Below are positions 41,099 to 44,846 of a DNA stretch of 44,846 bases, piece after piece. Each line of letters begins with the position of its first letter. Position 1 is the first letter of the stretch. Position numbers and translations under genes: made by a program. The notes beneath the pieces are model-generated. The model was not told where the DNA came from, did not search any database, and saw only the letters and a program-made list of their open reading frames with translations. The stretch comes from Flavivirga aquimarina (GTDB lineage: Bacteria > Bacteroidota > Bacteroidia > Flavobacteriales > Flavobacteriaceae), in NCBI RefSeq assembly GCF_030540835.1, contig NZ_JAUOEK010000128.1, positions 1 through 44,846 on the forward strand. Direction: 5' to 3'.

Positions 41099-44000
41099 TC
41101 AATGTTTTTGTATAAACAATTTAGTATTTACATCATCAAAAGCAATCTCAATACCGTTGTCTAATTTATCAATAATTTCAAGTTCATTAGTTAAAGTTTC
41201 TGTTTTTATATACGACATGTTTGCATTTACAGCATGTATAACATGATCATCTTTTTGAAGTGTTACATCAATTCTATCTGTTACTTCAAAGCCTGAATCT
41301 TTACGTAAATTTTGTATACGATTAATAAGTTCTCTCGCAATACCTTCTCTTCGTAAATCATCAGATATTGTAACATCGAGAGCTACTGTTAACGATCCTT
41401 CATTTGCAACCAACCAACCTTCAATATCTTGAGATGTAATATCTACATCTTCAAGCTCTAAAGTAATATTTTTTCCATTAATTTCAACATCTAAAACACC
41501 ATTTTGTTCAATTTTTTTAATATCATCAGAATTAAATGCTTTAATGGCATTGGCAATTGATTTCATTTCTTTACCAAAACGAGGCCCAAGCACTTTAAAG
41601 TTGGGCTTTATTTGTTTTACTAAAATATCTGAAGCTTCTTCTAAAAGTTCGATACTTTTAACATTAACTTCATGTTTTATTAACTCTGAAACAGCCAATA
41701 TTTCTTCTTTCTGTTGATCATTATCAACTGGAATCATTATTTTTTGAAGTGGCTGACGCACTTTTATTTTCTCCTTAGCTCTTAACGATAAAACTAATGA
41801 TGATATTGTTTGAGCGCTTTCCATTTTTCGTTCTAAACTTTTATCAACAAAGGCTTCATTATAAACTGGGAAGTTCGCTAAATGCACACTCTCAAATGAT
41901 TCTTTTTGGGTCACTGAATTTAAATCTAAATACAATTTATCCATAAAAAATGGTGCAATTGGAGCTCCTAGTTTAGCAATTGTTATCATACACGTATAAA
42001 GCGTTTGGTATGCCGAAATTTTATCTTGTTCATAATCGCCTTTCCAAAAACGTCTTCTACTTAAACGAACAAACCAGTTACTTACATAATCTTGCGTAAA
42101 ATCTGAAATAGCACGTGCTGCTTTTGTAGGCTCGTAATCGGCATAAAAAGCATCTACTTTCTTTATTAATGTATGCAATTCGGATAAAATCCAACGATCT
42201 ATTTCTGGTCGTTCTTTTATAGCTATATCTGCTTCTGAGTAACTAAAGTTATCTAAATTGGTATATAGAGTAAAGAAAGAATAGGTATTATATAGCGTTC
42301 CAAAGAACTTACGTTTTACTTCTTCAACACCTTCTAAATCGAATTTTAAATTGTCCCAGGGGTTTGCATTGCTAATCATGTACCAACGTGTCGCATCGGC
42401 ACCATAGTTCCCTAAGGTTTCAAAAGGATCGACGGCATTTCCTAAACGTTTCGACATTTTCTGTCCGTTTTTATCTAATACCAATCCATTAGATACTACA
42501 TTTTTATAGGCTACTGAATCAAAAACCATGGTTCCAATAGCATGTAACGTATAGAACCACCCTCTTGTTTGATCGACGCCTTCGGCTATAAAATCTGCTG
42601 GAAAAGTTGTTCCTTTATCAATTAAATCGGCATTTTCAAATGGATAGTGCCATTGTGCATAAGGCATAGAACCGGAATCAAACCACACGTCTATTAAATC
42701 GCTTTCGCGGAACATTTTTTGACCTGATGGTGATACTAATACAATGTCATCTACAATGTTTTTATGTAAATCTATCTTGGCGTAGTTTTCTTCAGAGTTA
42801 TTTCCAATTTCAAAATCTTCAAAAATAGCTGACTGTAAAACACCAGCTGAAACGGCTTTACTCATTTCAGATTTTAATTCTTCTACAGACCCAATGCAGA
42901 TTTCTTCTTTACCATCTTCCGTTCTCCATATTGGCAATGGAATTCCCCAATAGCGTGATCGTGATAAATTCCAATCGTTAGCATTTGCTAACCAGTTTCC
43001 AAATCGTCCTTCTCCAGTACTTTTTGGTTTCCAGTTAATAGAATTGTTAAGTTCGTGCATACGATCCTTAACATCGGTCACTTTAATAAACCATGAATCT
43101 AACGGGTAGTAAAGAATCGGCTTATCTGTTCTCCAGCAATTGGGATAGCTGTGCTTATATTTTTCTACCTTAAAGGCTTTGTTTTCTTCTTTTAATTTGA
43201 TAGCAATCTCTACATCTACAGAACGCTCTGGTGCTTCGCCATCATTATAGTATTCATTCTTAACATACTTACCAGCATATTCTCCCATTTCTGGTCTAAA
43301 ACGTCCTTGTAAATCGACAAGCGGTACTAGGTTACCATATTCATCTTTTACAAGCATAGGAGGCACTTCTGGGGTTGCTTGTTTTGCTACCAAGGCATCG
43401 TCTGCTCCAAAAGTAGGTGCAGTATGTACAATTCCTGTTCCGTCTTCTGTTGTTACGAAATCTCCAGAAATGATTCTAAAAGCATTTTCTGGATTATCAT
43501 TTGGCAATGTATAAGGTAATAATTGCTCGTAAGTAATCCCTACTAAGTCTTTACCAACAAATTCTTTTACAACGTAAAAAGGAATTTTTCCTGCCTTGCC
43601 GGCAGGCAGGTTATCTCCCGATTTATAATTTAATAACTCTGATTTATCTTCTACTTGATTGAATTTTTCAGAAAACTGATAGTTAACTAATTTCTTAGCT
43701 AAAACAACATTGATGGGTTCGAACGTATATTGATTATAGGTTTCTACTAATACATAATCAATTTTTGGTCCAACGGTTAATGCCGTATTACTTGGTAATG
43801 TCCATGGTGTGGTTGTCCAAGCCATAAAATAAATATCACCTTCGTTTTGTAAAAAGTCTGGTAACGAATCTGGATTTGCTTTAAATTGAGCAACTACTGT
43901 AGTATCGGTTACATCTTGATACGTTCCTGGTTGGTTTAATTCATGTGAGCTTAAACCTGTTCCTGCTTTTGGTGAATATGGTTGTATGGTATACCCTTTG

Positions 44001-44524
44001 TAAAGCAAGGTTTTATTATAAATTTGCTTTAGCAACCACCAAACACTTTCCATGTATTTAGGATCGTAGGTAATATACGGGTCATCCATGTCTACCCAAT
44101 ACCCCATTTTTTGCGTTAGGTCATTCCATACATCTGTATAACGCATCACAGCTTTACGACAAGCCGCATTATAATCTTCTACCGAAATAGTTTTACCTAT
44201 ATCTTCTTTGGTAATTCCTAATTCTTTTTCAACACCTAATTCGATAGGCAGTCCGTGTGTATCCCAACCTGCTTTACGCTTTACTTGATATCCCTTCATA
44301 GTTTTGTAACGTGGGAAAATATCTTTAATAGCACGTGCTAAAACATGGTGTACTCCGGGAAGACCATTTGCTGATGGTGGCCCTTCATAAAACACATACG
44401 GCTTACTGCCTTCTCTGGTAGAAACACTTTTTTCAAAGATGTTATTTTCTTGCCAATATCGTAGTATCTCGTTTGCTACATTTGGTAAGTCAAGTCCTTT
44501 ATATTCAGGAAATTTAGTGCTCAT
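41099..44524 (-). CDS. ileS: Isoleucyl-tRNA synthetase, eukaryote-like type 2
   Basis: IleRS charges tRNA-Ile and edits valine errors. It has 1141 residues, in the range of the longer type 2 enzymes. The HIGH-equivalent reads GVHH at 57-60 (NGLPGVHHVLARAIKD), not HxGH. The CP1 editing domain has TTTPWTLPSNTAL (237-249) and GTGIVHTAPTFGADDALV (about 360-377). The KMSKS equivalent is KMSKR at 689-693. Residues 305-312 (NLPAGKAG) are encoded by a GC-rich palindrome that looks inserted in frame. The anticodon-binding and extended C-terminal region (about 740-1141) are present without a zinc motif. It is first of ileS-dksA-like-lspA. Confidence 0.95.
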   Translation of the reverse strand: MSTKFPEYKGLDLPNVANEILRYWQENNIFEKSVSTREGSKPYVFYEGPPSANGLPGVHHVLARAIKDIFPRYKTMKGYQVKRKAGWDTHGLPIELGVEKELGITKEDIGKTISVEDYNAACRKAVMRYTDVWNDLTQKMGYWVDMDDPYITYDPKYMESVWWLLKQIYNKTLLYKGYTIQPYSPKAGTGLSSHELNQPGTYQDVTDTTVVAQFKANPDSLPDFLQNEGDIYFMAWTTTPWTLPSNTALTVGPKIDYVLVETYNQYTFEPINVVLAKKLVNYQFSEKFNQVEDKSELLNYKSGDNLPAGKAGKIPFYVVKEFVGKDLVGITYEQLLPYTLPNDNPENAFRIISGDFVTTEDGTGIVHTAPTFGADDALVAKQATPEVPPMLVKDEYGNLVPLVDLQGRFRPEMGEYAGKYVKNEYYNDGEAPERSVDVEIAIKLKEENKAFKVEKYKHSYPNCWRTDKPILYYPLDSWFIKVTDVKDRMHELNNSINWKPKSTGEGRFGNWLANANDWNLSRSRYWGIPLPIWRTEDGKEEICIGSVEELKSEMSKAVSAGVLQSAIFEDFEIGNNSEENYAKIDLHKNIVDDIVLVSPSGQKMFRESDLIDVWFDSGSMPYAQWHYPFENADLIDKGTTFPADFIAEGVDQTRGWFYTLHAIGTMVFDSVAYKNVVSNGLVLDKNGQKMSKRLGNAVDPFETLGNYGADATRWYMISNANPWDNLKFDLEGVEEVKRKFFGTLYNTYSFFTLYTNLDNFSYSEADIAIKERPEIDRWILSELHTLIKKVDAFYADYEPTKAARAISDFTQDYVSNWFVRLSRRRFWKGDYEQDKISAYQTLYTCMITIAKLGAPIAPFFMDKLYLDLNSVTQKESFESVHLANFPVYNEAFVDKSLERKMESAQTISSLVLSLRAKEKIKVRQPLQKIMIPVDNDQQKEEILAVSELIKHEVNVKSIELLEEASDILVKQIKPNFKVLGPRFGKEMKSIANAIKAFNSDDIKKIEQNGVLDVEINGKNITLELEDVDITSQDIEGWLVANEGSLTVALDVTISDDLRREGIARELINRIQNLRKDSGFEVTDRIDVTLQKDDHVIHAVNANMSYIKTETLTNELEIIDKLDNGIEIAFDDVNTKLFIQKH
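43590..43610 (-). repeat. In-frame GC-rich palindrome inside ileS
   Basis: The 21 bases read, on the coding strand, as a 7-bp stem (CCTGCCT/AGGCAGG) with TGCCGGC in the loop and encode N-L-P-A-G-K-A-G. GC is 16 of 21 in a gene that is otherwise AT-rich. CCTGCCGGCAGGCAGG-type repeats are dispersed in some Bacteroidota genomes; membership of such a family is inference. It lies between the two editing-domain motifs. Confidence 0.65.
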
Positions 44525-44846
44525 TTACTATACATTCTTATAAGGATGCGAATTTAAAGAATTTTCAGCAAAAACAGAGAGTTAATTCAAAGAGAAATCG
44601 TCGATTTTATAAAGTATTTACCTATAATTAAAAAATCTAAAATATTAATAATGGTTACCTATAATTCTTCACACATCTTAACAAATCTTTTTTGTATTGA
44701 CTTATTTTAACGTGAATCTTGCTTAAGAGTTCAGAAGTCACTTCGAGTGAAATTCTGGAAGAATTTTGTATCGAGAAGCTTTTTTAGTCGAAAATTTATT
44801 GGTTTTCGATACGATTTTTTGCAAGAATCACTCAAACTGACATAAA
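44525..44846. other. Right flank upstream of ileS, with a dispersed palindromic repeat at the end
   Basis: No gene is evident. The ileS promoter should lie in the first 100-150 bases but no full TAnnTTTG box is visible on the minus strand. The last 105 bp (44737-44841) form an imperfect long inverted repeat described separately. The sequence runs to the window end, so more of that element may lie outside. Confidence 0.5.
44737..44841. repeat. Imperfect inverted-repeat element at the window end
   Basis: Outer arms GTCACTTCGAGTGA (44737-44750) and TCACTCAAACTGAC (44828-44841) are complementary at 12 of 14 positions. Inner arms GTATCGAGAA (44768-44777) and TTTTCGATAC (44803-44812) are complementary at 9 of 10. 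The layout fits the GTCAGTTCGAGTG / TCGAGAAC / GTTCTCGATAC type palindromic repeats that are dispersed between genes in flavobacteria. Copy number in this genome cannot be seen. Confidence 0.7.

Follow-up and report, generated by a model that had tools for sequence, protein, structure and literature searches.

How a 21-bp GC-rich palindrome comes to lie in frame within an essential aminoacyl-tRNA synthetase gene, and whether it arrived there once or repeatedly, is the question raised by this locus. The window (the whole stretch of DNA that was analysed, 44,846 nt) contains the following features.

41099..44524, minus strand: ileS, encoding isoleucyl-tRNA synthetase (IleRS) of 1141 aa (TIGR00392), the host gene.
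43262..43921, minus strand: segment with the editing-domain motifs TTTPWTLPSNTAL ... GTGIVHTAPTFGADD, with the insert in the variable stretch between them.
43590..43610, plus strand: 21-bp GC-rich near-palindrome CCTGCCTTGCCGGCAGGCAGG, whose minus-strand reading CCTGCCTGCCGGCAAGGCAGG encodes LPAGKAG.
43589..43611, minus strand: insertion point, between the second and third bases of the first Lys codon in Asp-Lys-Lys-Ile-Pro.

The ileS product scored 989.5 bits against TIGR00392 (cut-off 621.4), and TTTPWTLPSNTAL and GTGIVHTAPTFGADD are presumably the IleRS editing-domain motifs. CCTGCCTTGCCGGCAGGCAGG was the sole match in the window when up to three mismatches were allowed, and no match was found in 100 dinucleotide-preserving shuffles of the window. 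The initial annotation had described a 21-bp GC-rich palindrome at 43590-43610. It is present as this single match, but it is not perfect, carrying one extra base compared with the perfectly palindromic 20-bp copies found elsewhere. Folded as single-stranded DNA, the 21-bp element formed a 7-bp stem (-6 kcal/mol, z -1.7) and its 20-bp relative an 8-bp stem (-8, z -2.25). The insert codes for LPAGKAG after Asp-Asn, and the translation of ileS placed NLPAGKAG at IleRS residues 305-312, as had been annotated.

The ileS genes of 12 congeneric genomes were compared. The insert was present in six of them (G000, G002, G004, G005, G006 and G008), while the other six (G001, G003, G007, G009, G010 and G011) carried an empty ileS reading Asp-Lys-Lys-Ile-Pro. 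The empty allele reads GATAA/AAAAATT (Asp-Lys-Lys-Ile; the slash marks the insertion point) and the filled allele GATAA-[21 bp]-AAAAATT, so the net gain is 21 bp, or 7 residues. Filled and empty congeners differ by exactly 21 bp, with no base gained or lost at the empty join; in this genome the A-tract of seven bases is split 2 + 5 and zero bases are duplicated. The ileS insert is optional. The six empty congeners carry the exact uninterrupted sequence. Both expectations set out at the start held: 7 residues are missing from relatives exactly at the insert, and further copies of the palindrome exist in the genome (below). Carriers were not monophyletic on the genus ileS and rpoB trees: the carrier G006 was sister to the empty G001 (support 100 on both trees), and the carrier G002 was sister to the empty G009 (support 99 for ileS and 72 for rpoB). 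In a scan of named records, the insert was absent from 79 of the best 80 of 588 ileS loci; the single carrier among these 80 was Flavivirga algicola (L123), whose ileS groups with that of G002 at zero distance, which makes Flavivirga very probably the genus of the 12 genomes.

The same base is occupied in other genera. A family-wide search with the insert-bearing segment gave a match in 385 of 397 genomes, and 41 of 42 loci were read (all except L372); carriers are counted among the matches listed. The ileS of a genome of genus g47 (L289/L354) had a perfect copy at the same base. Within g47, the insert was found in 5 of the 37 genomes having the segment (L354, L357, L358, L359 and L361), scattered on the ileS tree, and four more genera contained a carrier, namely g14 (L365), g219 (L366), g69 (L393) and g146 (L394). 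Carriers thus comprise at least 15 genomes of at least six genera, and in 15 of 15 the position and orientation are the same, the insert following the second base of the first Lys codon. At L358, six extra bases lie directly upstream of the insert, and the insert of L357 is heavily decayed. The distribution was patchy in all three genera whose congeners were read (the window's genus, g47 and g14, where the congeners L403 and L404 of carrier L365 are empty). On a tree of 166 segments, with rows drawn by similarity, a short segment and four duplicate genomes removed, 15 changes were needed for the 15 carriers.

Further copies of the palindrome were then counted outside ileS. This 5.29-Mb draft genome holds six copies of the strict form, the ileS copy included, confirming that the palindrome has other genomic copies, and none of the reversed pattern. 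A looser outer-stem pattern gave 52 hits, a count that mixes several palindrome kinds, and again 0 when reversed. Strict copies occurred in 8 of the 12 congeneric genomes, from 1 to 29 each; G002 and G006, which carry the ileS insert, have no strict copy remaining. In the family, copies were found in 68 of 299 genomes (maximum 19), and in the phylum in 17 of 148; the reversed control was 0 in the listed genomes of the genus, family and phylum searches. These counts at the level of genome, genus, family and phylum support the early reading of a Bacteroidota dispersed repeat within an essential enzyme. The 56 distinct copies fetched from the genus were mostly 20 bp long (34 copies; 14 were 21 bp and 8 were 22 bp), and the ileS copy was the only one inside a long open frame, of 3423 nt; the next longest had 438 nt.

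Many copies are nested within larger repeats. Six of these larger repeats were tried for empty versions; three gave none, and the three with an unoccupied version (filled/empty 7/3, 1/1 and 3/4) showed an exact junction and no target duplication. Target-site duplication, a trait of MITEs, is therefore absent at ileS and in these three larger-repeat contexts, unlike in a MITE. Copies rarely come in pairs, 6 of 126 having another copy within 200 bp, and a GTAG or CGTC tag stood directly at the element end in 0 of 69 collapsed sites and within 8 nt in 5 of 69. As is expected of REP elements associated with RAYT, the short palindrome occurs in several dispersed copies; as is expected of Rickettsia palindromic elements (RPEs), the ileS copy is an in-frame insertion in a conserved gene with empty orthologues, and in-frame copies were also found in other genes. 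In open-licence PMC papers, the palindrome string and its peptides gave no match.

The relation between copy length and reading frame was analysed in a sample of 75 copies, which is not random, the 21-bp and 20-bp copies having come from separate length-specific searches. The exact 21-bp form was found at 36 places in 20 of 397 family genomes, with a reversed control of 0. By a mechanical count, open frames of at least 450 nt contained 20 of 36 21-bp copies, 3 of 36 20-bp copies and 0 of 3 22-bp copies. When the translations were read, 16 of 36 21-bp copies against 1 of 36 20-bp copies were truly within coding sequence (Fisher p 4e-5), the 21-bp copies L287, L297, L304 and L308 and the 20-bp copies L278 and L322 being judged upstream or spurious and the 20-bp copy L319 being taken as coding. 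In this sample, 21-bp copies are commoner inside genes, and the length effect is a frame filter. The 16 hosts were eleven DUF6090-type genes, two MerT-type genes, one E1-E2 ATPase (P-type), one bacterial alpha-2-macroglobulin-domain protein and one ileS of another genus; Pfam was run on one DUF6090-type protein (L263) and one MerT protein, and the rest, ten and one respectively, were assigned by inspection. With DUF6090-type genes accounting for 11 of the 16, the coding copies are not independent. The two MerT-type genes, from two genera, have the insert at the same place. Of the six frames available, all 16 coding copies are read in one of two, LPAGKAG or PALPAGR, which are the two cysteine-free ones, suggesting that cysteine is avoided. 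Viral contigs yielded 33 stretches containing the 20-mer and 7 containing the 21-mer. They were excluded from the frame test and would weaken the frame filter if counted in: 32 of 40 of their 20-mer copies are in frames of at least 450 nt, and many of the stretches have long open frames throughout, presumably due to GC-rich DNA. Separately, in several genera the N-terminal region of DUF6090-type genes was seen to hold the 21-bp element, at no fewer than three different positions (L263, L280, L281, L283, L288, L290, L291, L299, L300, L306 and L311).

We propose that the ileS insert belongs to a REP-like, non-autonomous family of palindromic elements, 20-22 bp in length and spread across the phylum, which would insert without target duplication, as shown for ileS and three kinds of larger repeat. 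Among genic copies, those that survive would mostly be 21 bp in length and in one of the cysteine-free frames. Judging from the distribution, insertion into the A-rich Asp-Lys-Lys-Ile stretch, in a variable and insertion-tolerant region, may have recurred at one and the same base across six or more genera, and within genera filled alleles may then lose the insert or be exchanged for empty ones. Once inside the gene, the palindrome would decay while the peptide is weakly kept. Taken as a whole, this account of a mobile REP-like palindrome, a frame filter, repeated ileS hits, within-genus turnover and decay in the gene is probably right; mobility in trans and repeated insertion are inferred. Since the remaining genera are empty and several inserts show no decay, we favour repeated insertion from genus to genus, combined with loss or exchange inside each genus. 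A permissive A-rich site that takes up the element recurrently is likelier than one old event, with local allele exchange also playing a part. Because target duplication is missing, a single-strand (HUH/Y1-type) insertion route may be guessed.

A rival reading is that a host REP-associated tyrosine transposase (RAYT) mobilised the insert. Matches to Y1_Tnp were present in 12 of 12 congeners, the absence of target duplication fits, and one Y1_Tnp gene of this genome has CCTGCCGGCAGGCAGG about 280 bp upstream, on one side only. However, this was the only one of 30 fetched Y1_Tnp loci with a related palindrome; the other 29 had none (30 of the 63 matches were fetched). Where Y1_Tnp genes do have flanking palindromes, these differ in sequence, Y1_Tnp genes also occur in genomes without a strict copy, and the element ends lack a GTAG or CGTC tag. 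We regard RAYT mobilisation as possible but doubtful. As a separate observation, Y1_Tnp proteins of ~500 aa (G000:C153:39482-41145, L085 and L092) lie between long palindromes, CCTGCCAGGTTTTTAAAACCTGGCAGG and AGACCTGTCAGGTTTT.AAAACCTGACAGGTCT with near variants; these genes and their flanking palindromes are likely a RAYT/REP pair. A DUF559 nuclease was also considered as mobiliser and was rejected, a related palindrome being found at only 1 of 30 DUF559 loci. No mobiliser emerged from either set of loci.

What can be seen of a target at the ileS site is its A-rich stretch. No strong target motif was found, and flank-to-flank pairing was slightly raised over reshuffled flanks. Hairpin-loop targeting was dropped as a main claim, the flank pairing being barely above that of reshuffled flanks (10 of 500 reshuffles reach it). 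Insertion into tRNA genes was likewise rejected: at 131 joined sites no ARAGORN tRNA spanned the junction, and 3 were nearby. By eye, the 20-bp copies L055, L242, L261, L262 and L323 adjoin tRNA-gene-like pieces. That the 21-bp palindrome is a miniature site-directed, homing-like element of just seven codons, written repeatedly by some enzyme or repair process into one ileS base (Asp-AA/R-Lys-Ile) and into recurrent DUF6090 and MerT positions in several genera, and removed or replaced scarlessly, we consider unlikely.

About equally unlikely is that a filled or empty ileS allele spread horizontally among species or genera by homologous recombination, with no need of repeated insertion. The patchiness among close relatives would fit such exchange, as would the Glu that the g47 carriers L357, L359 and L361 share before the insert where their sisters have Asp. 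On the other hand, in comparisons between genera the flanks match the host's own genus, L365 going with L403 and L404 in g14 and L354 lying among its congeners. The 150-bp flanks on both sides of the insertion point divide the evidence within Flavivirga. Those of G001 are closest (once tied) to carrier G006 and those of G003 to carrier G000, which speaks against exchange, whereas the flanks of empty G009 resemble those of empty G001 and G010 more closely than those of carrier G002, its sister on the ileS tree. Farther from the insert, G002 is the nearest or tied-nearest to G009. These comparisons show no sign of local gene conversion for G001 and G003 and may indicate it for G009, which makes allele exchange somewhat likelier.

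Less probable still is one ancient insertion in the Flavobacteriaceae ancestor, followed by vertical inheritance and exact loss in nearly all descendants. The agreement of all 15 carriers in position and orientation would be explained by it. Moreover, the first branches of the outgroup-rooted genus ileS tree, G008 and G004, are carriers, and in the genus a single gain with some five losses accounts for the pattern about as well as five or six gains do. However, the empty alleles at nearly all the named-record loci would need very many exact losses, and sequence reading found no short direct repeat at the ends to explain an exact 21-bp deletion. At such an age one would hardly expect the perfect inserts that G000, L354 and L359 retain, and undecayed copies sit in lineages separated by many empty ones. 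Dating the insert by its decay was given up, because the 12 changes in the six Flavivirga inserts fit, by branch lengths, one old gain and several gains alike.

Measured against the undecayed element, each of the 15 inserts differs by 0 to 10 changes. Counted per genus, 16 of 32 changes are synonymous against 31% expected (p 0.019), and the peptide is therefore weakly constrained. All six outer-stem pairs are kept in five inserts, and one to four pairs are broken in the other ten; a compensated outer-stem pair, with changes on both sides, was seen only once, in L357. The hairpin does not look to be kept for its own sake in the gene. Peptide variants include NQPTGKAG, NSPSGKPE, NPSAGVAG and NQPDGKAG. 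Selection for a function of the heptapeptide, as an adaptive extension of the editing domain, would agree with the synonymous excess and with the same peptide in at least six genera, but is very improbable, as half of the congeners lack the insert, its sequence drifts among carriers, the same peptides occur in unrelated proteins, and other inserts at the same spot (L362 and L400) speak for tolerance.

These other inserts, in the ileS genes L362 and L400, are about 35 and 70 residues long, so that permissiveness is a property of the region itself. Among solved structures, the best relative, 8c8w, aligns to query residues 19-262 and 310-1127, so the insert borders a stretch without counterpart in that structure. 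An AlphaFold2 model of the ileS segment, built from 32 sequences and of modest quality (mean pLDDT 60, pTM 0.59), shows the insert as coil between helix 93-97 and strand 114-122 (segment numbering). The suggestion in the initial annotation that the insert is tolerated on a surface loop is thus plausible, resting on coil in a modest model and on a position at the edge of the stretch unaligned with 8c8w.

Other insertions were seen in the same enzyme. The ileS genes of G003 (L026) and G007 (L027) contain two more in-frame repeat-like peptide insertions, GSRQPELVPGSHDEAPKQVRND and SPLTPKGGIENSI. A DUF559 domain lies in frame within IleRS of 3 of the 12 congeners, G004, G006 and G011 (L109 and L116; G011 from the alignment), and also, patchily in the same genus, within LeuRS (leuS L098 and L105) and RecG (recG L117 and L122). 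These DUF559 insertions are edged by the repeat-like peptides LPPKSSKGGL and SLPSGEISGAS, and further DUF559 matches occur in frames of the same lengths, including two in the window's own genome (C107 and C146). The DUF559 insertion looks like a homing-type element in essential genes.

Three known systems bear comparison with the palindrome. In the excerpts of two papers (PMC2229807, PMC3733652) that describe the work of Ogata et al. (2000), RPEs are palindromic repeats that lie in frame in conserved genes, are tolerated and also occur between genes, and the present palindrome is like them in these respects. RPEs are 105-146 bp long, and one enzyme stays active with its insert (excerpt of PMC2229807); the present element differs from those described in being 20-22 bp long, in belonging to another phylum and in occupying the same ileS base in at least six genera. 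The comparison with RPEs made at the outset is apt as an analogy, drawn from these descriptions. The excerpt of PMC3733652 counts RPE-4 and RPE-6 among CGTC REPs, places GTAG/CGTC-tagged REPs within ORFs, tRNA synthetases included, and mentions REPs at about the same recB site in two Xanthomonas species. The Bacteroidota element resembles the intragenic REPs described there as a short palindrome within an ORF with a tRNA synthetase among its hosts, but differs from them in its missing end tag, its few pairs and the lack of a partner RAYT seen at 30 loci. Yeast mitochondrial GC clusters are, in the excerpt of PMC4464245, mobile GC-rich palindromes of 30-80 bp in an AT-rich genome, also found in the coding gene VAR1. 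They share with the present element the GC-rich palindrome in an AT-rich genome and the entry into a coding gene; they are longer and organellar, whereas this one is bacterial, and the likeness is by description, not sequence. By analogy, the Bacteroidota family would work like RPEs or intragenic REPs.

Peptide-forming palindromes in the excerpts of PMC2229807 and PMC3733652 come from Rickettsia and other mostly proteobacterial genomes. New here is a Bacteroidota family in which close species have natural filled and empty alleles, copies pass a frame filter, and an essential gene is recurrently hit at one base. Two old questions thereby become open to testing: by what means such very short palindromes move, and whether they can go on adding peptides to enzymes. 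Inspection by eye also showed a large imperfect repeat-like stretch (gtcacttcgagtg...gtatcgagaag...) closing the window, at 44730-44846.
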